From: a virus
Direction: 5' to 3' (one strand)
Virus record (IMG/VR): IMGVR_UViG_3300017917_004497
Coordinates: 1-23,339 of that record
Length of the DNA stretch: 23,339 bases
Shown: positions 1-12,277 of the stretch, one piece after another
How positions within the stretch are numbered: the first letter of the stretch is position 1
Layout: the number at the start of each line of letters is the position of its first letter
Position numbers and translations under genes: made by a program
Notes under the pieces: generated by a model
Told to the model about the DNA's origin: nothing
The model's database searches: none
The model's input: the letters and a program-made list of their open reading frames with translations, nothing else

Positions 1-135
1 AAGGTTGAGATGGAGAAGGCTGAATTGGTGATGGTGTAATAGGAGAAGGTTGAGATGGAGAAGGCTGAATTGGTGATGGTGTAATAGGAGAAGGTTGAAA
101 GGGAGAAGGCTGACTTGGCGATGGTATTGATGGTG
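1..135 (-). repeat. 45-bp coding tandem repeat (15-residue PSP-rich unit)
   Basis: Bases 1-45 and 46-90 are identical and 91-135 is a diverged third copy. Each unit encodes a 15-residue Pro/Ser/Gln/Ile/Thr segment in the minus-strand adhesin frame. The array continues beyond the window edge. Because 45 is a multiple of three, copy-number change would keep the frame and only alter stalk length. Confidence 0.93.
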
Positions 136-2056
136 TTAATGGTGTAGGTGTAGGTGTAGGTGTAGCTGTAGGTGAAGCTGTAGGTGATGGAGATGCTGGA
201 CTTGGAGCGCATGGATTCACAGGATTATTTGGATTTTTGGGACTACTTTCTGGAAAACATACATTATCTTGAAAAGCAAAATTTAGACACCATTTGGCAT
301 AAAAAGGTAAATCAGCACTTGATCCACTTTTTCTTACTGACCAAAGTTTCCAGGTTCCTACGGGCTTTATTCCATTAAATACACTTAAACTAGTTGACCA
401 AGGTGTAACAGGGAAAGATCCAAGTGTAAACCAATTATCACCTGCACTTGGAGAACCAGTGCAAGTATCCATTGAAATATTGTCGTTTGATTGCAATGTG
501 TTTGGAGACGGTTTGTATGTTCCGCCTGAAACTACTACTGGATCAGCTAATGTTCCATCTGGATTTCCATTTGTGGTAGAATTATTATTTCTTGGTAAAT
601 ATTTTATAGAATCATCAGAAAAAATTAAATCAATTGTTGTAGTATTATCTACATTGCCAACACGTAACTCATCGCAAATAGTACCACATGGAAAAACTGA
701 AGTATCATATGTTAAAGCGTTTACTGCTGTAGACCACAAGATACAAGATCTAGTAGAAAGTTCACCATCTTGTAATGGAGCTTCTAAAACTATTAAAATT
801 TCTCCTAAATTATTTGGTGTTAGGCTTGGAGCTTTTTGCTTTAAACCAAATCCTTCAAGTTTAACAGTCACTCTATTTAATATTGTTGGATTGGCGCAAG
901 TACTACAAGCAGATTCAGTAACTTCCAATATGCTATAACTAGATACTGTTCCTATGTTAGCACCAGCATTGCTGCATTGCCCAACGCTATCAACAAAATC
1001 AATTAAAATAGGTGCAAATCCAGTGTTTATGTCTATGGGACTTAGTTCAATAACACTAGGTATTCCTATTGCTGTAATTATAGTTGGAATATATGGTTCA
1101 GTAAAAGTAATTACAGATGGAATTGGAGGAACAACTACTATAGTGCTTGGCACATTCAATGGCCCTAAAGGGCCAATATTTATTGAAGGAAAAACAACTG
1201 GAGGAAAATTAATGACTACTGGAACTGGTTCAAAGTTTGGTATATCAATTAAAGGAAAATCAGGTATTGGAGGGCATTCAATAGGAGGAACTGTTACTTG
1301 AACAGGTTCTACAAAATCGGGACCAGCACCTCCAGCATTTGCATTATCACAGGTAACAGTCAAACTTGTATTTGGTGTGGTTACTGTCAATAATGGATTT
1401 ATATCATAACCAGGCGGATAACTATGTACTCCTGTTAGAGCTGTTGTTTCAGAAGTTCCATCTCCAAAATCAAGTGCAAAACCAGTTGTATCAGCATTAA
1501 TAGAAATATCGTAAGTGAAATTTGTACCTGTTGTGGGATTGAGATCTCCAATATTACAGTTGAATATTACTTCTGGAATTCCATAATCGTCCAAAATCGC
1601 TGGCAAATTCTCTAAATTTTCTAATTTCCAAGTTAATGGATTTTGATTTTGTGTACCTTGATTTCCTATAACATTTTCTAAATTTACAATTGCTCTTGCC
1701 AGCTGGTTATGGTGTTCTGCCATAACAAAGCCTCTAATATCAGTACCAGCTGGATTAAATTGAGATTTTTTTCCACCTATGCTTCTTATACAATTTTTTA
1801 AAGCATTTATTTTATTTGTATATTGGTCGAATCCAACATCATCATAATAAAGTACTTCACCATTTATTGTAGCAAAACCATTATTTGGCCAAATTTCTGG
1901 TCTATCTACAGGCACAGGTTTGATATAAATAATAGTATCAAATTGCTCTGATGGAAGTACAGTAACACTTTCTGTGCTATTTTTTACATCAAATAGAGTA
2001 TAATCCGTATCATAAGTTTTTGGATATACTGGAAATGGTATGTACCCGTTATTCAA
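1..2056 (-). CDS. Modular tail adhesin-like protein with PKD-like and P-domain-like regions and a Pro/Ser/Thr repeat stalk; C-terminus cut by window edge
   Basis: I read this frame codon by codon: it is open from TTG at 2056 to base 2, at least 685 codons. An in-frame TAG at 2068-2066 leaves TTG as the only reasonable start, and AGGGTG lies 5 bases upstream. Residues 1-30 and the AEHHN motif near residue 115 match the next two upstream genes. A PKD-like domain with DFGDG lies near residues 158-230. A Pro/Ile/Val-rich spacer of about 100 residues follows. Residues about 385-595 resemble a proprotein-convertase P-domain: RVTVKLEGF, ILIVLEAP, FSDDS, GGTYKPS, LSVFNGIKPVGTWKLW and KWCLNF occur in family order. 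The C-terminus is a TP/PSP-rich stalk with 15-residue repeats. About fourteen cysteines may form disulfides. I infer an extracellular fibre or adhesin at the tail tip; there is no catalytic protease domain. The stop lies outside the window. Confidence 0.8.
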   Translation of the reverse strand, partial: MNNGYIPFPVYPKTYDTDYTLFDVKNSTESVTVLPSEQFDTIIYIKPVPVDRPEIWPNNGFATINGEVLYYDDVGFDQYTNKINALKNCIRSIGGKKSQFNPAGTDIRGFVMAEHHNQLARAIVNLENVIGNQGTQNQNPLTWKLENLENLPAILDDYGIPEVIFNCNIGDLNPTTGTNFTYDISINADTTGFALDFGDGTSETTALTGVHSYPPGYDINPLLTVTTPNTSLTVTCDNANAGGAGPDFVEPVQVTVPPIECPPIPDFPLIDIPNFEPVPVVINFPPVVFPSINIGPLGPLNVPSTIVVVPPIPSVITFTEPYIPTIITAIGIPSVIELSPIDINTGFAPILIDFVDSVGQCSNAGANIGTVSSYSILEVTESACSTCANPTILNRVTVKLEGFGLKQKAPSLTPNNLGEILIVLEAPLQDGELSTRSCILWSTAVNALTYDTSVFPCGTICDELRVGNVDNTTTIDLIFSDDSIKYLPRNNNSTTNGNPDGTLADPVVVSGGTYKPSPNTLQSNDNISMDTCTGSPSAGDNWFTLGSFPVTPWSTSLSVFNGIKPVGTWKLWSVRKSGSSADLPFYAKWCLNFAFQDNVCFPESSPKNPNNPVNPCAPSPASPSPTASPTATPTPTPTPLTPSIPSPSQPSPFQPSPITPSPIQPSPSQPSPITPSPIQPSPSQP
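141..188 (-). repeat. 6-bp coding microsatellite encoding Thr-Pro dipeptides
   Basis: Four perfect ggtgta units on the plus strand (141-164) are followed by four degenerate ones. They encode a TP-rich run just before the 15-residue repeats of the same protein. The unit is in-frame, so slippage would change length without a frameshift. Confidence 0.85.
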
Positions 2057-2085: not shown

Positions 2086-4269
2086 TTAGAAAGTTCCCAT
2101 CAACCATTGGCTATAATTTGGCCTTTCTGATAATTTGCTAAAACTTAAGTCAATATCACTAAATCTTAAAAATGAATTGTATGTATAATCAAAACTAAGA
2201 AAAGCGTTATGATCATTGTCAGTTGTTGCTAGTAAAGTATTTTGTGCGTTATTAAAATCTAAAAAGTTTCTATCTTGATATTGTGCAAATTCAACAGGAT
2301 TAGTAATTCCTCCAATTTGCCAAGATTCTGTTGCTGTGTCATATGCAGATACTGATCCTGAATTGTTGAAAAAGTACAGACCGCTAGTTAAGTTTACTAA
2401 TTGACCTTCTAGTTTTTCAGGACCGGCTACATTATTTAATTTTTTGAAATAAAATATTAAATCTGCACCATTTTCAACAGTTTGATAAAAAGAGTTTAAT
2501 TGGAAAAATGAACCAACTCCGCTATTTCTTACAAAATACCCATTTCTATCTCTCCAAGCGTATCTATAAACAGAAAAATAACCATATAGACTATCACAAG
2601 CATCATTAAACTCTGCAATATTTTGTTGAAGTTCAGAAGCAGCTGAAATATAATTATTTATTGAAAAATTATAAGATGAAGTAGCATTAGATAATTGATT
2701 GTATATAATCATAGTTTGATTTGTCAAACTAAGATTTACAGGTTGTGTAGTTGGATTGCCAAAAAGGAAATATGTTTCAAAATCTTTATTAAATGCTATC
2801 CAGTTCCAAGGTCTAACAATATTTTTAATTTCAGCATATGATTCATTGAAACCATTATATTCGACGATTTGAATTAATTCTGCTGAGGTTGGTTCTACGC
2901 CGTTTCTACCTGTCGCGTAACAAATATTTGATGTTCCTGCATATCCACTTGATAGAGAAGATGAACTGCTTAGAAAAGTATTACGACTAAACTCTCTGAT
3001 TGCTTGTTCAGAATTAAATGTATTTATTAAAAAATTATAATTACTTGTTATATTAAGACTTGCATTTTGTCTTGTCTTGAATGCTTCACTAATAAACCCA
3101 AATTCACTTGCTCTGACAACACTAGTGCTATAAGAATCAAAATTATACAACCATAAATTTGTTAGTTCTATAACATTTACATAATTTGATAAAACAGTAT
3201 TTGTATATGCTAAAGAAACAGTGTCAACTCTTAAAACCACATCATAAATTCCACCAGATGAATATAATAAATCTGTAGATTGAGTATTTGTGTGTGGATA
3301 ATTATCGGACACTAACCAAGTGTAAGTAGTAATTGGGTCAATTGGTACATTGTTTTGATTTACTTCTTCCCCTGAATATGTTTTACCAGTCAGTGGATTT
3401 ATACCAGGAGGTACAAAAATTGATAAAACTGTTTCAATAGGAATTTTTATTTGGTCATTTACAATTTGCTGAAATGTTGATAATGTATAATTAATAACAG
3501 CAAAATCTGGTGCAGGATACTTTACATTTATATAAGCAGGAAATTTAAGAGTATCACTTCCGTATTTATTTGTTACTTTGAGAGTAACATCAAAAAGTCC
3601 AGGTCGTTGATAAGTGTGTGTAGCATTTCCAACATTACTTGTTACGCTATAATTTATTTGACTAATATTATTATCACCAAAATCCCATGTGAAAGTGATT
3701 GGATTATTTTCAATATTTGCGCCAAGTCTAAAACTCTCATCTGTAAAATTTACCGTTAGAGGTACAACTCCTATTTTGTTATCGGCAGAAAACCAGGCTT
3801 TAGGCATATATGCAATGCTATATAAATAATTAATTCTTTGATTTATGTTACCTTTATACGGCATCATAGCTTTTTCATCAGCCAATCCCAAATATTCTTG
3901 AATTAGTTTTATTGAGTCTTTTATTGCATTATGATGTTCTGCCATTACATTTTGTAATACATGAGTTACATTTTTTGGTTTATAACTATCAATAAATCCA
4001 CCTAAGATAGTAATTCCATCAAAAGTTACATCTGTTTTTGAAGTATAATAAAATGATATGATTCTTTTTTGTGGTTCGCTACAATTTTCAACTAAAGAAA
4101 TTAATCCTGAATCTGGAAACAAATCCATAATTGTTTGATTTAATTCAACTGTAATCGAAGTATCACCTGGATTATAATCTTGGCTTAAAACTAATCTAAG
4201 ACTATCTTTTACTTCATATAAATTTGTAAAATCGTCAACTGCATTTGGAAAATTAAGTGGAACCAACAT
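2086..4269 (-). CDS. PKD-domain tail adhesin-like protein (727 aa)
   Basis: This is the second member of the three-gene family. Residues 7-28 carry the shared FP...D...LYEVK pattern, and AEHHNA lies at 110-115 followed by an amphipathic helix. A clear PKD fold covers about 156-250, with PLTVNFTD, WDFGDN near 195 and HTYQRPGLFDVTLKVTN. A second, divergent PKD-like unit covers about 253-370, with TTYTW and YDVVLRV. The C-terminal 350 residues are not recognised; they are rich in Asn, Ser, Tyr and Phe, and one segment (LYFFNNSGSVSAYDTATESW) is reminiscent of a Kelch or propeller blade, which is weak. ATG at 4269 shares one base with the upstream stop (TAATG) and AAGGTG precedes it, so translation is probably coupled. 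A role as a receptor-binding or decoration protein is inferred from domains and position. Confidence 0.85.
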   Translation of the reverse strand: MLVPLNFPNAVDDFTNLYEVKDSLRLVLSQDYNPGDTSITVELNQTIMDLFPDSGLISLVENCSEPQKRIISFYYTSKTDVTFDGITILGGFIDSYKPKNVTHVLQNVMAEHHNAIKDSIKLIQEYLGLADEKAMMPYKGNINQRINYLYSIAYMPKAWFSADNKIGVVPLTVNFTDESFRLGANIENNPITFTWDFGDNNISQINYSVTSNVGNATHTYQRPGLFDVTLKVTNKYGSDTLKFPAYINVKYPAPDFAVINYTLSTFQQIVNDQIKIPIETVLSIFVPPGINPLTGKTYSGEEVNQNNVPIDPITTYTWLVSDNYPHTNTQSTDLLYSSGGIYDVVLRVDTVSLAYTNTVLSNYVNVIELTNLWLYNFDSYSTSVVRASEFGFISEAFKTRQNASLNITSNYNFLINTFNSEQAIREFSRNTFLSSSSSLSSGYAGTSNICYATGRNGVEPTSAELIQIVEYNGFNESYAEIKNIVRPWNWIAFNKDFETYFLFGNPTTQPVNLSLTNQTMIIYNQLSNATSSYNFSINNYISAASELQQNIAEFNDACDSLYGYFSVYRYAWRDRNGYFVRNSGVGSFFQLNSFYQTVENGADLIFYFKKLNNVAGPEKLEGQLVNLTSGLYFFNNSGSVSAYDTATESWQIGGITNPVEFAQYQDRNFLDFNNAQNTLLATTDNDHNAFLSFDYTYNSFLRFSDIDLSFSKLSERPNYSQWLMGTF

Positions 4270-5285
4270 TAAAGCACCTTTATTGTTGATGAAGCAGAAA
4301 TTTTATTTGAACCTAAATTTGTTGTAATCAATAAACTTGGTGTATATGTTCCTGGATTTACATAAAAATGATTTGCATAATTTATAAGTGGATTAGATTG
4401 ATTTTCATTACTTCCATCATCAAATATCCAAAATCTTGATTGAATATTACCATCAGTTTGATCAGTAAATTTAAAATTTGTAGCTTGTATGCTAAGTTTG
4501 CTGGCAGTTTTAATTGAATAACCCGTAACTGGAGAAACATAAAATAAAAATTTAATTATATCATTACTTACTTTTATGTAATTATTTTTTTTAGCAAAAC
4601 CTTGACCGCCAATATTTGTGATTGCTCTACAACTTACTGAGTAAACTCCCTCTGTTAAATAGGTATGTTCTGGACTTTTTTCTAATGATGTTCCTCCATC
4701 ACCAAAATCCCAGAAAAATTTATTTGCTATTTCTGTAGTAAAATTCTGAAATTTTACAGTTAGAGGTGTTCTCCCTGATCTTGGATTCGCTCTAAATATT
4801 GGTTGTGGATTATAAAATTTTCTTTCGAGTGCAGATAACCTTGAATTCACAGCAGTAGTATCAATATTGTCTGATGCACCTAGATATGTTTCTATATTTA
4901 TTATTGCATCTTTTAGTGCGTTATGATGCTCTGAAAAAACTCCTCCAATAACAGGGCAATTTATTGGCCAGTTTTGTTGTCTAGTACCAGCATAGCCTCT
5001 AATTAAATTTGTAAATGTATTATCTGTTTTAGCATCATAATAAACAAATTCAGGAACAGCTGCAAATTTGTCTTCTAAAGTTATTCTTAAAATGCCTTTT
5101 TCTGGAAATGATTCAGTTGAATTTACTATAATTGAATTTGATCCATATACGCAACTTTGCAATAAAAAGGTTTCACTATTGTTTTTCGCAAAATATAGTG
5201 TCTCGTAACTATCAATTGCAGCAGGAAATACAGATAAATCGCCTGGTAAATAGCCACCATCATAACTGCTTATCTTTGTTACCAT
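4269..5285 (-). CDS. Two-PKD-domain tail protein (338 aa)
   Basis: This is the shortest and most typical family member. Residues 20-35 carry the FPAAIDSYETLYFAKN module. A middle segment contains FVYYDAKTDNTFTNLIRGYA, and SEHHNALKDAI sits at 118-128 before a helix. PKD domain 1 (about 160-239) has WDFGDG at 192-197 and EHTYLTEGVYSVSCRAITN. PKD domain 2 (about 248-338) has FWIFDDGS and NPGTYTPSLLITTNLGS and ends the protein. PKD domains are Ig-like beta-sandwich spacers common in surface proteins and some phage tail proteins, so this could be a connector or short adhesin. ATG at 5285 overlaps the upstream coiled-coil gene by 26 bases in another frame. An AGGA motif lies about 12 bases upstream, a rather long spacing, so coupling to the upstream gene is likely. 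Confidence 0.88.
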   Translation of the reverse strand: MVTKISSYDGGYLPGDLSVFPAAIDSYETLYFAKNNSETFLLQSCVYGSNSIIVNSTESFPEKGILRITLEDKFAAVPEFVYYDAKTDNTFTNLIRGYAGTRQQNWPINCPVIGGVFSEHHNALKDAIINIETYLGASDNIDTTAVNSRLSALERKFYNPQPIFRANPRSGRTPLTVKFQNFTTEIANKFFWDFGDGGTSLEKSPEHTYLTEGVYSVSCRAITNIGGQGFAKKNNYIKVSNDIIKFLFYVSPVTGYSIKTASKLSIQATNFKFTDQTDGNIQSRFWIFDDGSNENQSNPLINYANHFYVNPGTYTPSLLITTNLGSNKISASSTIKVL

Positions 5286-5886
5286 TAGTCAACATTTTCC
5301 TTTGAATATTTGTAAATGATTCTACCAACGATGTCTTAATTTTACTATTATCGTCAAGACACATAGTTGATTTAACTAACTCATTATTTATTGGATGGCC
5401 TAATAAAATATTCAAATTTATTTCATTGCTAAACTTGTTTTCAAAATATTCCTTTTGTGCTTTTTCATCATTGAAATCAACATATTTAATTTTTGAGATT
5501 AATTCGTTGAAAATACTAACAAATTTTTTACTTTCTTCTTCTAAACAAATTTTCTTTTTATGCAATTTAGCGAGATTATTTTCCAAAACAAGTATTTGTC
5601 TATTTATTTTTTTTATTTCAATAGTTTTAACTACAATTTTTACATTTGTTTCATTTTCTTTATCTGATCTTTCAATAAGTTTTAATGCAATATCGTCTTT
5701 ACAATTTTCTATTTCTAAATCTAAATTTACTAAACTATCATATCTTGCTTCAATCTCTCTTAGACATTGCCACGCTCTACCAATATGTGTTGGTTCTTTT
5801 CCTATGATAAATTTCTCGATTTGAAAATCACTATGTCGTTGTGGTGCTGGAAATTTTTCTAGTATTTCTTTACAAATCTCAATCAT
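5260..5886 (-). CDS. Charged coiled-coil protein of unknown function (208 aa)
   Basis: I do not recognise this family with certainty. The N-terminus (about residues 1-50) is compact, with PAPQRHSDFQIEKFIIGKEP and GRAWQCLREIEARYDSL. Residues about 50-130 are Lys/Glu/Ile-rich with heptad-like spacing, suggesting a long coiled coil. The C-terminus (about 140-195) has KAQKEYFENKFSNEINLNIL and GHPINNELVKSTMCLDD. There is no signal peptide, membrane segment or beta-rich part, unlike the virion proteins around it. A non-virion assembly factor for the neighbouring fibres is an inference; a structural coiled-coil linker is the alternative. GGAG lies 6 bases before ATG at 5886, but both fall in a predicted hairpin. 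The 3' end overlaps the next gene by 26 bases and stops at TGA. Confidence 0.8.
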   Translation of the reverse strand: MIEICKEILEKFPAPQRHSDFQIEKFIIGKEPTHIGRAWQCLREIEARYDSLVNLDLEIENCKDDIALKLIERSDKENETNVKIVVKTIEIKKINRQILVLENNLAKLHKKKICLEEESKKFVSIFNELISKIKYVDFNDEKAQKEYFENKFSNEINLNILLGHPINNELVKSTMCLDDNSKIKTSLVESFTNIQRKMLTNGNKDKQL

Positions 5887-5926
5887 TGATTTCTCCGTTG
5901 TTATAATAATAGAGAAATCAAATGAT
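5882..5926 (-). promoter_or_regulatory. Inverted repeat that could hide the start site of the coiled-coil gene
   Basis: TTGATTTCTC at 5886-5895 and its exact complement at 5912-5921 form 10 perfect pairs. The pairing extends to about 14 with one bulged base, using 5882-5926. The loop is about 16 bases and A/T-rich. In the minus-strand mRNA the downstream arm contains part of the GGAG ribosome site and the AUG at 5886-5884. No U-tract follows, so it does not look like an intrinsic terminator. It lies in the largest intergenic gap of the window. Confidence 0.6.
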
Positions 5927-5930
5927 AATT

Positions 5931-6716
5931 TTAATCAAGTGGTAAGTCAAAATCTATTCTAATAATATCATCAATTTTAAGAGCAGTATCTAGAAAAAAT
6001 CCTAATCTATCTTCTGTTTCTGTAAATTTATTATATAGCCAATGCTTAGTATTAGGATCTGTAGAAGCATAATACACAGTTGCATCAGAAAACAACCTAG
6101 TTCCATTTACATAAACTCTTAATGATCCCTCTGTATAAGGAACATTAAGACCAGTTAAATAATTTACATAATCTGGAGTTAAATTTTTGCTCAAAGGAGT
6201 AATCTGATAAAAATGTCTGTGAGCATTTTGTAGTCCAACAATAACTTCAGCTGATACTTTATTTGGTTCAGAAACAGTAAAACTTATTGTGCTACTATTT
6301 TCAAGTATTAATGGTCCGTTATCAAAAAATACAACTTCTGAAATTTTATCAACTTGAATCCAGAAATTTTTGGCTTCATTTTGAATTAAAGCAAGTTTTT
6401 CTCTTTCACTTAAAGTCATTCTTACATAATCGACACCATCAAAATTTCCATCTTCATGCGCGCCTATATTGTGCATTGCCTCATCAATTTTATAATTTTT
6501 AAGATCACCATTTGGCATGAGTGATTGATTTAGTCTTGCTGCTAAAGATCCAGTACTGCCAATAGCTGACTCTAAAATATTTGTATTTATATCAACAGCA
6601 TTATTAATTAAGTCTTCTCTTTGAATTAAAGCTTCAAGAGGAAGATTATCATAAACCCAATAATAAGGTTGTAAAGGTTGATAAGATGGAACAGGAATTA
6701 AATTTATATCTGGCAT
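5931..6716 (-). CDS. Putative tail fibre or baseplate-periphery protein (261 aa)
   Basis: The N-terminus, with PYYWVYDNLPLEALIQRED and NNAVDINTNILESAIGSTGS, followed by LAARLNQSL, looks like an oligomerising attachment region of phage tail proteins; this judgement rests on pattern memory. Residues about 85-130 include EDGNFDGVDYVRMTLSERE and a helix. The C-terminal half is beta-rich, with QNAHRHFYQITPL, EGSLRVYVNGTRLFSD and DDIIRIDFDLPL, typical of a fibre-type beta domain. It sits between the wedge genes and the adhesin genes, as expected for a connector or short fibre. ATG at 6716 is 15 bases after the upstream stop, and I see no good Shine-Dalgarno sequence there, so translation may depend on re-initiation. 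Exact role unknown. Confidence 0.78.
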   Translation of the reverse strand: MPDINLIPVPSYQPLQPYYWVYDNLPLEALIQREDLINNAVDINTNILESAIGSTGSLAARLNQSLMPNGDLKNYKIDEAMHNIGAHEDGNFDGVDYVRMTLSEREKLALIQNEAKNFWIQVDKISEVVFFDNGPLILENSSTISFTVSEPNKVSAEVIVGLQNAHRHFYQITPLSKNLTPDYVNYLTGLNVPYTEGSLRVYVNGTRLFSDATVYYASTDPNTKHWLYNKFTETEDRLGFFLDTALKIDDIIRIDFDLPLD

Positions 6717-6731
6717 ATATTATTTACACTA

Positions 6732-7205
6732 TTAAATAAAATTTACTCTCCAATTCCAAACTATTTGTATATCACTTGTTTTTGATAATGTGGGAAAAGT
6801 TGCCATAGAATACAATACATCATTATTCAAAACAAGAGCCATTTCTGACAATCCATACCCATTTGCGTCATCAAATCCTAACACAGAAGTAAAAATAGCT
6901 TGAGAAGAATTGTTAGAATCAATTGAGCTAATAACACTTTTGCTTGCTCTTGTGATGCCAAAAAGACCTGTTCTTTCTGGATTAACATATCTAATCGTAG
7001 TTCCGTCTACTCCACCATCACCAAAAATCATTCTAGAAACGAAGAAATCAAAAGATTGTCCTATATTATTCGTTAATGCTTGAACTACTGCTGATCTTCC
7101 TCCTAGCAAAACAGTATTCTTAAAATTTATATCTGTTACCAATCCATCTTTTGTTATGATTTTACCATTTACAAGTCCAATTGAAGATACTGATTCTGTT
7201 ATCAT
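6732..7205 (-). CDS. Putative small baseplate or tail-fibre-associated protein (157 aa)
   Basis: This is a beta-rich protein. Its pattern of FFVSRMIFGDGG in the middle, a central TGLFGITRASKSV, then LSEMALVLNN and the ending FPTLSKTSDIQIVWNWRVNF resembles small phage tail proteins that start with a helix for trimer contact and end in a W-x-W beta strand. That family feeling comes from pattern memory, not a search. ATG at 7205 overlaps the stop of the gp7-like gene as ATGA, and AAAGGTGAA lies just upstream, so the two are translationally coupled. The position directly after the wedge gene favours a peripheral baseplate component, perhaps a fibre adaptor. Confidence 0.75.
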   Translation of the reverse strand: MITESVSSIGLVNGKIITKDGLVTDINFKNTVLLGGRSAVVQALTNNIGQSFDFFVSRMIFGDGGVDGTTIRYVNPERTGLFGITRASKSVISSIDSNNSSQAIFTSVLGFDDANGYGLSEMALVLNNDVLYSMATFPTLSKTSDIQIVWNWRVNFI

Positions 7206-10200
7206 AGTTCACCTTTGCTTTCTGTGCCATCTTTCCTTTTAATAGAATAACTAATTCCCTCAAATTGCTGAGAAAAATCTTGTGGTTGACCATTTTTTAA
7301 GTTTTCTCTTGTTTCTTCTTTTTCAAGTAATCTACTGGCTACATATAGAGACATATTATTTATTTGACCTTGTATTAGTTCTTGACCACTTCTGTCTATA
7401 AAATTATATTCATCACCCATGATATTAATTGGATTTTTAATATATCTATAAAGAATATAAGAAAATGTGCTTCCACCATATGTTTGTGTTCCTAAAGACA
7501 CAAATTTACCTGTTAAATAAACATATGTATTAGGTCCAACAGTTTGTTCTTTTACTATTGCATATTTTGTACTATTGTGTTCAACAAGATAATTCTCTGT
7601 AAAATTACTGTCTTCTAACGCATTTGGATCATTTGGAGAAGTAAATGTTGGCCATGTTATAGGCTTCAAAATTTTAATTTCAGAATAATTAAAATTACCA
7701 GTTGCTTCTTTTATCAATCTTTTCAAAAACTTGCCAGCTACTAATGCTAAATCTCCAGAATTCCAATTTGAAATATAAAATTGTAATTTATTGCTTTCAT
7801 TCCATCCCACAACATCATATTGTTGGCTAGTAGAATCTAAGTAAAAATAATTATTTTCAGTAATATATTGAGAAACATCCTGTATTCCAAGAGATATTGG
7901 TATTTCAACTCTACCTCTATGCTTTATGTAATAATTACCAGTAGTACTTGAAAATATTAGATTATTGTTATTATCAACTAAATTATATTCTAAGTTTTGT
8001 ATATCATTGTTGTAAAGTGTTCCATCATCTTCTAAGATAAGTGAATTATCATCAATATTGTATATATTGTAGTATTTAGATAGACTTGTGATATAAACTT
8101 TCCAACATGAATTAGAATATCCGTATATTACATCCCAAAGAGTCTTTATAGGATACATAACGAAATGTTGTGTTGTATCAGATAAATAATGAATATTGTC
8201 CTGAAAAATATTAAAATTAGCTGAAGCAAAAATAATATTTGATAGTCTAAAAGTAAAATCAGAAGTATTTAAAAGTTCAGGAATAGAACCAATTGCTACT
8301 TTTGCAGTATTTGTTATTGGATCTGTAATGCCATACTCACCAGCATTTATATGTGGAGCAAGAACTTCCAACATATTATTACTAGGAGAATTGTCAAGTC
8401 CTATTGATGACAAATTATATAAAGGAGCAAATAATCTTACTTCTTCATTATATCCAGTAGTTGATCCAGTATCCTCTGTAGACGAAGATGCTAAAACATT
8501 TCTTAGCACTTGGTTTGTGTAAAAAGGTAAAACCATATTCCTGTTAAAAGATGAATTGGCCTGACCGCTAATAGTAAATTCATCACCTTCATATTTGATC
8601 AATATTTGAATTGATTCAACTGGAGGTACTATAATATCATCAAAATAACCAACAAATTTTAGTGTGTGCAAAATTGCATGAAAAGGCATAAATTGTTCTA
8701 AAATTTCTTGTGCTTCTATTAGTCTTGTATTTGACAAATCTTGAATTAATAAATCAACATTGTAGTATGAACTTATTGTGTTTCTACATGGCTCTACGAA
8801 GTTTTTATCAATATCTTTTGGTTCATATGAATCTCTTAAAGATCCATTATATTCATCCATGTTATAGGCTTGTTCGCTATATGGAAATTCTGTTCTGATT
8901 TTACCAAACTTGATTGGATCGTAAAATGGATTTTTCACATTTATAATAGTTGAAAATAACGGATCATTTTCTTCGATTACATGAGTGTTCCAGTCTTTTT
9001 TGGGAAACTCAAATGTTCTGTCATCTCTTGTGTCTGCCAATTGTAATGATAAAATATAATTACTTATTTGAATTTGAGTTTCATTTGCAAACTCTTTAAT
9101 TTGATATGTAAGTTTTATTCTGTCGCCTGCTTGTAATTCTTTTCCTTTCCAAACTAAAACAGATTTTCCAGCGAATGTGATTATTTCACAATTAGATAGA
9201 TTAATTTCTTGATAGGCTTGTGTATTGTTTTCAAATTCCAACTTAAAATGCTGAACATTAATTGGTAATGATACTTTGTCCAATGTCCATCTAGTTTCAC
9301 CTTCATATGCAAATGATTCTGTAAATACAAATTCTGAACCAACTAACCATAATTGACTATAACTTAGCAATCTTATACCAGCATCATCTAAAACTTCTCT
9401 AAGACCTTTTAATGTACCTTTTTTCTTGTTCAACGGAATTGATTTTGCTACTTGTTTTCTCCATCTTGTAGGATCAGTGCTTCTTAATGGCGTATTGAAC
9501 ATATTAGCCAAATAAATTAAAAGCTGATCCTGTATAACATTTGCATCATACAAATCTATAATTTGATTTGATAAATTTTCAAGCATAGTAAATCCATCAC
9601 CTATGCTTTTATTTGTTTTTTCTAAAACATTAGGACCAATATCATTTGCAGCATATTTTTGTTTGTACATTTCAGGCAAATATTTTGTAAGCAAATCAAA
9701 ATATTTCTTTGGCGGTGTTCTGTGGCTAGGTAAAGATGTAGTACCTTTAATATCTGACTCTAAATAAAATTTTTGATGAGCTGATATTGTGTCTCCATTC
9801 AAATTTGGTTTGTATTTATAACAAATAAAATAATCACCTTCTCTTACATTTTCGGCAGTCCACTCGAACATGAATCTACCATATGCAAAACTTTCATTTG
9901 GTGCTGGTTTTACTATAGGAAATTGAATTGAATTATCACTTTTCCACAATGGTTCACTTTCACTTCCTTTATTAAAAACCACAACACTATTCAAATAGTA
10001 GTTGTTAGATTCAATTTGTGAAGTAAGCAATCTAGATTTTGCATCAGCAGCTCTTTGTAAATTTTCAGGAGTTGGATTAATACAAGCAATATTGTTCAAT
10101 CTGTAATATTCTGTTTCCAAGCCTTTTTGACTTGAAACATCATCAAATTCACTAAGATTAGGATTAGCAAAGTCTCTTTGTATGTAATAAATTGTAATAT

Positions 10201-10313: not shown

Positions 10314-11864
10314 TCACTCGTATGTAAAATTAATTGTTGTTGATTCAGGTCTGATAATTTCAAAATATCTTGTAATTACTTGTTTACCACTATTATTTGG
10401 ATTTACTGTAGCAAAAAATATGTCATATCTCTTTGGTTGCTGCAAATCAGACAGAGCTTTTATTACATCTGTGTCTCTTAAAGGCTGTCCATAATCCCAA
10501 TAATTAAGACTAAAAAATGATGTTATTCTATTGCTAATCTGTGCTTTAATTTCATCCTGGAACTTTTTGTAATATTTATCAAGAATTACATTTAGTGAAG
10601 TATTTACATAAACAATTTCTCCATCCTTTACATCAACATAATCTGTTATCATTTTATTTTCTTTGATATATTGCTCAAACTCATATTTAAACTGAGAATT
10701 AGCCTTTACAAGATTAAAATTATTTTCCTTAACTAGAATAAAAAATTCAATAATATTTGCCGAACATCCACTATGTCGTAAAACAACATTAGCTTTACCC
10801 ATAGAACCATTATATGGAGTAGTGAATAAATTGGCGTAATTTTTATAATCTGTTCCACTTACACATCTATTTTGCGTTTGTGCATAAATAGGCAACTTGT
10901 ATCTAATGTCATCAATGCTATCACCAGAGAATCCAAATTCTCCTCTTGTGTAATTTGATAAAGAAACTACAGCATTGAAAACTTCACCATCTATCGGAAC
11001 TAATGCTTCAGCAGATGCAAAATTACTTATTATATTTCCGCTAGGCCCACCACCTACTCTGTACACAACTTTTATACTTGATCCAACAGTAGGAATATAT
11101 CCAGCTCTATTACTGCCAAAAATAATAAAAGCAGTGTAAGTTGAATCAAAATCAACTCTATATTCTCTTCTAGCTTGTGAATCTGTAAAATATAATACCT
11201 GTTCCCATTCAACACCATCTACAAACACTCTTATTGAATCAAACAAAACTGGATTAAATGTACTTGCGTATGTCTGAGATGGACCGCCTTCAGAAGTAAA
11301 GAAATCTGTGTAAGTCCGTCCTTGTATTCCAACAATATTACTGTTAATAAGTTGCCCAGATGGTATTATAATATCCTCATCAAATATTGGTCTATTCAAT
11401 GGGTCTGCACTAAATAGTTCAATCGTTGTAGCCTGATCTGCATTTACTATATCAACAACATATGGAGTTGGAATTCTTAAATCAACATTATAAGTGTTTG
11501 CTATCCTCGCGCTCCATAAAGACTTTCCTGCTACTGGTGGTGTCGGTCTAAAACCAACTAACTGAGCAAGCCTAAATGCATTATCAAGTTCTGTAACTGT
11601 ATCAATAAACACTTCATTAGCTAATTGATCTATTTTAAATGATAAAGTATCAGCTATGAAAGCCCAGTTTTCAATCAACATTATGCCTAATGAAGATTCA
11701 ACAAAATCATTAAACTCTGATCCAAAATTTTCTTGTATGTAATTAATTAATCTTGTTTTAAGTGACCAAAAGTCTTGATTTGTATAATTTAACGAAAAAA
11801 CTTGTGGCTTGCTTGTAGATGCACCCACTTTGTATGGTGTTATATCAAAAGGACATTTTTCCAT
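10314..11864 (-). CDS. Baseplate J-like wedge protein (T4 gp6 / P2 gpJ family, 516 aa)
   Basis: This family forms the ring that links wedges around the hub. The N-terminus has the family pattern LGIMLIENWAFIADTLSFKI and DTVTELDNAFRLAQLVGFRP. The middle has a beta domain with IRVFVDGVEWEQVLYF and FIIFGSNRAGYIPTVGSSIK. Then comes RGEFGFSGDSIDDIRYKLP and VSGTDYKNYANLF, typical of baseplate J. The C-terminal DYGQPLRDTDVIKALSDL also fits. Length is intermediate between P2 gpJ (about 300) and T4 gp6 (660). ATG at 11864 overlaps the previous stop by one base (TGATG) and GGGGGTG lies upstream. The in-frame GTG three bases earlier is unnecessary. Confidence 0.92.
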   Translation of the reverse strand: MEKCPFDITPYKVGASTSKPQVFSLNYTNQDFWSLKTRLINYIQENFGSEFNDFVESSLGIMLIENWAFIADTLSFKIDQLANEVFIDTVTELDNAFRLAQLVGFRPTPPVAGKSLWSARIANTYNVDLRIPTPYVVDIVNADQATTIELFSADPLNRPIFDEDIIIPSGQLINSNIVGIQGRTYTDFFTSEGGPSQTYASTFNPVLFDSIRVFVDGVEWEQVLYFTDSQARREYRVDFDSTYTAFIIFGSNRAGYIPTVGSSIKVVYRVGGGPSGNIISNFASAEALVPIDGEVFNAVVSLSNYTRGEFGFSGDSIDDIRYKLPIYAQTQNRCVSGTDYKNYANLFTTPYNGSMGKANVVLRHSGCSANIIEFFILVKENNFNLVKANSQFKYEFEQYIKENKMITDYVDVKDGEIVYVNTSLNVILDKYYKKFQDEIKAQISNRITSFFSLNYWDYGQPLRDTDVIKALSDLQQPKRYDIFFATVNPNNSGKQVITRYFEIIRPESTTINFTYE

Positions 11865-12277
11865 CACACACCCCCAAGTGGTATAGCTAAAACTAAATTC
11901 TGCACATCATTTATCTGCTCAGGATTTACAAATTGTATTTTCACTAAAACTCCCTGTTCATTAGTTACAATAGTATCTGAATTAGGATCTCGTTCCATCA
12001 ATGTTTCAACTGTAATTTCTGTAACTGTAATTCTTGGCTCCCATGTATCAATCGCACTTATAATTTCATCCCTAATTTGATTGTTTAAACCAACACCACT
12101 TTGCTCAAATAAATATTTTCTTAAATTTGTTCCATATAAAGGCAACATGACTCTATCACCAGGATTTGTCATGATAAGTTGAATCAAATCACCTTTAATA
12201 TTGTTTTTTCCTTTTTGGGAGTAATAAAATCCCAAAGGATTAGTTGTTACGGGAAATTGAAAACCACTTAGTTCCAT
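11864..12277 (-). CDS. gp25-like baseplate wedge protein (137 aa)
   Basis: The gp25/gpW family is a universal wedge component that seeds sheath assembly in contractile tails. Characteristic residues are visible: GDLIQLIMTNPGDRVMLPLY, a Gly-rich GTNLRKYLFEQ, and IRDEIISAIDTWEPRITV followed by a strand. These match the family core of an R-M/P-rich turn and a conserved W-E/P-R-I segment. Length is normal (T4 gp25 is 132 aa). The gene lies between spike and baseplate J, the order found in many myophages and contractile injection systems. It ends in TGA overlapping the next ATG. It starts 2 bases after the spike stop, with GGGTG upstream. Confidence 0.95.
   Translation of the reverse strand: MELSGFQFPVTTNPLGFYYSQKGKNNIKGDLIQLIMTNPGDRVMLPLYGTNLRKYLFEQSGVGLNNQIRDEIISAIDTWEPRITVTEITVETLMERDPNSDTIVTNEQGVLVKIQFVNPEQINDVQNLVLAIPLGGV

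Follow-up and report, generated by a model that had tools for sequence, protein, structure and literature searches.

A diverged P-domain-like module in a fibre-like protein of a phage baseplate operon

P-domains have been studied as partners of proteases. The domain is usually paired with a subtilisin-type protease, and that of subtilases is held to aid protease folding and maintenance (PMC2605481). For a P-domain-like cluster of fibrillar adhesins the function was left ambiguous (PMC9210967). The structural references are the P-domains of furin and Kex2 (family PF01483), and bacterial P-domains of the type considered here abound in Verrucomicrobia, Bacteroidetes and Cyanobacteria, among others. 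No report of a phage P-domain was found in the literature covered, outside which most subscription papers lay. What is new here is the setting of a diverged P-domain in a fibre-like protein from a phage baseplate operon, for which a binding role is plausible.

The baseplate operon and the architecture of g3

The window, by which is meant the whole stretch of 23,339 bases that was analysed, is an entire virus record, and Pfam and PHROG profile searches found it to consist of a contractile-tail baseplate block. A baseplate wedge gene of gp6/J type (10314..11867, minus strand; phrog_219, 4.1e-30) marks the locus as part of a baseplate operon of a contractile tail. Also present are a gp53-like wedge (phrog_7145), an OB-domain spike (Phage_base_V), a gp25-like gene (phrog_261) and a Tail_P2_I gene (Pfam) followed by three genes, g1, g2 and g3, while an open reading frame of 2074 codons, identified by no profile, sits at the place expected of a tape measure. 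Within the phage collection the nearest relative is the uncultured 595-kb phage LR756511, with 44% identity in the gp6-like protein and the same gene order in the baseplate block. Both g1 (4269..5285, minus strand; PKD_4, 2.3e-21, for two PKD domains; phrog_2885 baseplate wedge, 3.7e-6) and g2 (2086..4269, minus strand; PKD_4, 1.1e-14, for PKD domains; BLASTP to g1, 2e-21) carry paralogous N-terminal modules, and g3 is the final visible gene of the operon. A bacterial surface-protein gene, brought in by mis-assembly of the contig or as a host-derived island, would be of a type common in the bacterial groups named above, but is already contradicted by synteny, as g3 ends a collinear baseplate operon kept in related viral contigs and in LR756511 and a P-domain-bearing ortholog stands at the equivalent place in a separate viral contig (L002); such an origin is most improbable.

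Downstream of its baseplate operon, a few genes away, LR756511 has an actin-like gene (L038:3781-4800; Pfam Volactin, 3e-67), and similar Volactin-type reading frames occur in the relatives L200-L203. In another relative the Volactin-like gene (L001:17214-17876) continues beyond residue ~184 as what resembles the start of a Hint/intein domain, CLCPRTKIYTDKGIVEIQDVKIGDKVITH, which Hint_2 matched below its cut-off (E 0.001).

The g3 reading frame (2..2056, minus strand, as are all its parts) encodes at least 685 residues from a TTG start, identical in the ortholog of L002/L039, and is incomplete at its 3' end, where the contig stops. Residues 1-160 (1577..2056) form a module of baseplate- or tail-attachment type, with the motif MAEHHNQ..AI..(L/I)E..IG, that is related to the N-terminal modules of both g1 and g2 (BLASTP g3 to g1, 4e-13). 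A PKD-like domain with the motif FALDFGDG follows at residues about 161-245 (1322..1576); it had no Pfam PKD match (PF18911/PF00801) in the window, and PKD_4 gave E-values of 7e-4 to 9e-4, under the Pfam cut-off, in the homologs of L001 and LR756511 and 0.16 in L002. Across related contigs the first 245 residues are 37-45% identical. Next comes a repeat shaft of (I)PSxI/PPxxF type (residues about 246-366; 959..1321), recognised by direct reading and by partial alignment with the longer shafts of related phages, and then the P-domain-like jelly-roll module, delimited by HMM, hhalign, AlphaFold and VIA-align to residues 368-601 (254..955). A stalk rich in Pro, Ser and Thr (residues 602-685; 2..253) lies 3' of it, is encoded by a 45-bp tandem repeat at 1-125 and runs off the contig; at the equivalent place the ortholog in L002 carries Asn-Pro/Thr-Pro repeats over about 300 residues. 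A search for a continuation beyond the repeat-broken contig end found none.

This layout bears out the view of the initial annotation that g3 is a phage tail protein. Its sequence of an attachment module, a PKD-like domain (here a weak one) and a Pro-rich stalk was also borne out, the (I)PSxI shaft and the running of the stalk off the contig having been missed, and its range for the domain of 250-935 (residues about 375-602) fits, with 254..955 fitting better. It had further stated that no protease is attached, and no peptidase was found by Pfam and PHROGs in g3 or among the window proteins scanned. The usual pairing of P-domains with subtilisin-type proteases could suggest that the module binds or regulates a separate subtilisin-like protease encoded by phage or host, but the same scan and the embedding of the domain in a fibre-type architecture leave this reading with hardly any credibility.

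Relationship of the module to known P-domains

The domain has no direct match in Pfam, NCBIfam, PHROG or PDB sequences. PF01483, to which the initial annotation had pointed, matched neither the window domain nor that of L002 at E-values up to 10, and since there is no PF01483 match above the gathering score the domain is described, from its sequence, as a diverged homolog and not filed as a member of the Pfam family. The motifs on which the initial annotation relied (RVTVKLEGF, ILIVLEAP, FSDDS, GGTYKPS, LSVFNGIKPVGTWKLW and KWCLNF) are all present in the order given, within residues 395-592 of g3. Homology to P-domains is indirect, running through intermediate bacterial sequences, and as judged from these alignments it is firm. 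A scan of 84,980 species genomes with the pattern LSVFNGxxPxGxW returned 112 stretches, nearly all of them P-domain-like by eye, and the "long" bacterial P-domains (alignment A3) match PF01483 in 33 cases out of 33. When the pair formed by the window and L002 (A2) was compared with A3 the hhalign probability was 97.2%, and a global, whole-length profile-profile comparison with the bacterial family gave 98.4% (E 3.4e-14). An HMM of bacterial P-domains scored the window at 31.7 bits and L002 at 32.2, the best of 2000 shuffles reaching 10.3, so that the resemblance is more than chance.

As the family had been fetched by its LSVFNG signature, agreement at the signature is expected. With the signature masked the local hhalign probability was 13-37% and the local score 26.9-30.9, near shuffle level (25.1 for the best of 200 shuffles). 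When instead the N-terminal half was shuffled and the signature left intact, none of 200 shuffles was as good as the real sequence (76.8, against a mean of 58.6 with sd 5.5); the N-terminal half had no part in fetching the family, and the signal there therefore answers the circularity of the scan. Blocks that align between phage and bacterial sequences are VTVKLEGF, EILIVLEAP, RSCILWSTA, TIDLIFSDDSIKYLP and GTYKP. The last of these (residues 512-516; 509..523) is conserved in bacterial P-domains (alignment A4), and within the signature itself, LSVFNGIKPVGTW (residues 557-569; 350..388), VFNG, G and W are invariant in A4.

The bacterial P-domains of A3, for example those of Paenibacillus (L112) and Microcystis (L097), have a block order in common with g3: VTVTL, LLVGP, LTFDDxA..LP and SGTYKP, continuing with P.P.g..LSVFNG..P.GTWsL and GWxLxI. 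Unlike them, the g3 domain has no PYPS strand, no His of the HTxP motif, no invariant Asp and no V.DD...D.G acidic pattern. The invariant Asp of the bacterial D.D.LLVGP strand is replaced by Glu419, the bacterial D at residues 575-576 gives way to R/P and K (Arg575 and Lys576 in the window), and Asp582 stands instead of Gly; VFNG, Gly and Trp of the signature are retained. Large insertions separate the strands. Those of the window domain (254-955, minus strand) carry cysteines (FPCGTICDEL, DTCTGSP) that are absent in the ortholog of L002, which suggests that they are lineage-specific, perhaps forming disulfide-pinned loops.

Modelling by AlphaFold from the two phage sequences only failed (pLDDT 28). 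With 63 sequences the pTM was 0.72 and the mean pLDDT 70; the core strands scored about 81-95, and the long insertions were poorly resolved (model m3ed5b88fb09c); bacterial P-domains were part of this input, and the model is thus supportive and not independent proof. In a comparison by VIA-align the top places went to 17 Kex2 and furin entries (Z 8.5-9.0, with 109-115 residues aligned at an rmsd of 2.7-3.1), followed by an unrelated secreted protein (6.4) and a P-domain-bearing Aeromonas protease (5.7-5.9). Furin and Kex2 also stood on top in Foldseek, with weak E-values (0.08), and a Foldseek search of viral models brought nothing convincing for the g3 domain. The model supports a beta jelly-roll of furin/Kex2 type, the initial annotation having proposed a jelly-roll P-domain. 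This predicted fold is common to the g3 domain and to furin and Kex2, from which the former differs in being only 16-17% identical, in its large loop insertions, in matching no Pfam family directly and in being set, with no protease attached, in a phage baseplate-operon protein.

A jelly roll of other descent, in which the LSVFNG..P.GTW turn arose by convergence, would account for the failure of PF01483 to match directly, for the concentration of the signal in one C-terminal motif and for the large inter-strand insertions. It is very unlikely, however, given the whole-length global alignment (E 3e-14), the N-terminal signal that is independent of family fetching, the correct order of the VTVKL, DLIF.DDS..LP and GTYKP blocks, and the position of furin and Kex2 clear of all other folds in VIA-align. 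Profile comparison and modelling together confirm the prediction that residues about 368-601 of g3 are a divergent proprotein-convertase P-domain without a protease.

C-terminal replacement and the role of the domain

In the viral collection a single ortholog with a P-domain was found (L002/L039). Its N-terminal module is 77% identical to that of g3 and its P-domain 45%, with many gaps besides, the P-domain being the least conserved segment of the protein. The other homologs compared were those of L001, LR756511 and L200-L207; among the last, L201 and L202 seem to be one virus, as do L204 and L207. These homologs have the N-terminal module, PKD-like domain, start of the shaft and operon place of g3, but differ in their C-termini, which are long repeat shafts of (I)PSxI/GPSxLPxxI type; no P-domain was found in any of them, L204-L207 being seen up to their contig ends only. 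Because these relatives combine the g3 N-terminal module with repeat shafts and no P-domain, the comparison identifies the P-domain as a swapped-in module, a C-terminal replacement behind a conserved N-terminal module. Replacement of this kind is usual in phage fibres, and g3 has the marks by which a tail fibre is recognised, namely a place in a tail/baseplate block, a conserved N-terminal module and a variable C-terminus. A weak match in L030 lies in the homolog of another baseplate gene and was set aside.

Several homologs end in C(F/V)xxxPC. Fibre proteins in four contigs (L200:11583-14615, L201:9010-11340, L203:9117-10982 and L001:9989-11815) end in C(F/V)(A/M)xxPC after their shafts. The short Cys tail is possibly a capping end, either lost by the window lineage or lying off the contig.

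The reading favoured, with modest confidence, is that g3 is a modular baseplate-attached fibre-like protein of a contractile phage related to LR756511, with the diverged P-domain serving as a surface-binding adhesin unit. The N-terminal module, like those of the two upstream neighbours, would attach the protein to the baseplate, and the PKD-like domain and repeat shaft follow it. In the window lineage a diverged P-domain and Pro-rich stalk stand in the place of the longer shaft of the relatives, several of which have the short Cys-containing end, and the P-domain would help the tail to grip host-surface material, perhaps a glycan. Host binding by the domain is likely by analogy, from its position, from the C-terminal swapping and from the occurrence of other viral P-domains beside beta-helix, esterase and discoidin modules; this is weakened by the long Pro-rich stalk that follows the domain and by the loss of conserved acidic residues. 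With a stalk after it the P-domain need not be the fibre tip.

A doubtful but substantial alternative is that the P-domain is a structural unit, acting as a spacer or cap or in folding and stability, with the receptor-binding part lying beyond the stalk and off the contig. In both orthologs the domain has more stalk on its C-terminal side, PKD and fn3 domains that act as spacers are often found around it, and the folding and maintenance role held for the subtilase P-domain would be a precedent. However, that the domain is the least conserved segment and absent in relatives fits better with an adaptive tip or side module, and in the VWA/discoidin phage proteins described below the P-domain is itself the C-terminal domain. 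The comparison also reveals where C-termini are exchanged in a baseplate-fibre family of huge-phage relatives, and the P-domain offers a small domain for functional tests.

P-domains in other viral proteins

Four domain queries found no P-domain in 50,697 phage records, and no PHROG family convincingly matched the viral P-domains; both results hold for the collections searched and at the sensitivity of those searches. Pattern scans of the viral collection did find further contigs with P-domains, falling into two groups. As in g3, the domain sits in a large multi-domain structural or tail protein with no recognised protease; the attachment parts (VWA/F5-8/DUF5977 or fn3/beta-helix/GDSL) are unrelated to that of g3, and these P-domains are near the bacterial ones whereas that of g3 is far diverged. 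PF01483 scored above cut-off in L189, L190 and L199. Other pattern matches (L171, L172, L177 and L178) were judged by eye to be due to chance, and one in L170 was weak.

The second group comprises L194 and L196 (both 3714-7313), where a major head gene (phrog_283) and the head closure gene Hc3 lie near the gene, and L199 (2574-8111), where it adjoins the tape measure gene. The protein that these contigs share, with an identity of about 49% across 1,200 residues, combines fn3, a P-domain, a Pel9A-like beta-helix and a GDSL lipase. The carriers are a podovirus-like contig (phrog_283 capsid, Hc3) and a siphovirus contig with a long tape measure, and from the sequences it is likely that this tailspike-like protein was transferred across virion types.

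By analogy it seems that phages reuse the P-domain fold on virions, probably for gripping hosts. A broader proposal, put forward tentatively and rated somewhat below an even case, is that P-domains form a general class of domain by which phages recognise hosts, overlooked until now and taken up independently in no fewer than four virion types (those of the contractile huge-phage relatives, of a P22-like podovirus, of a siphovirus and of the VWA/discoidin-bearing group), with the form in the window diverged under host pressure beyond the reach of profile libraries. Protease-free copies in unrelated phage tail or adhesin proteins suggest that the fold itself serves in binding or as a scaffold, and the phage adhesin repertoire gains a fold recognised by no PHROG profile and absent from the annotated phage records searched.

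In the first group (L188:8555-11362, L189:8578-11952, L190:8493-11912, L191:6213-12311 and L192:5334-9725), the members of which have a common gene order, the proteins are large and bear VWA, F5/8 or DUF5977 domains; the P-domain of L191 is encoded by the gene adjoining that of the VWA protein. The proteins are of 900-1,460 residues and combine VWA, discoidin (F5/8), DUF5977 and P-domains. Matches of the L189 protein in the phage collection cover the discoidin-like part only.
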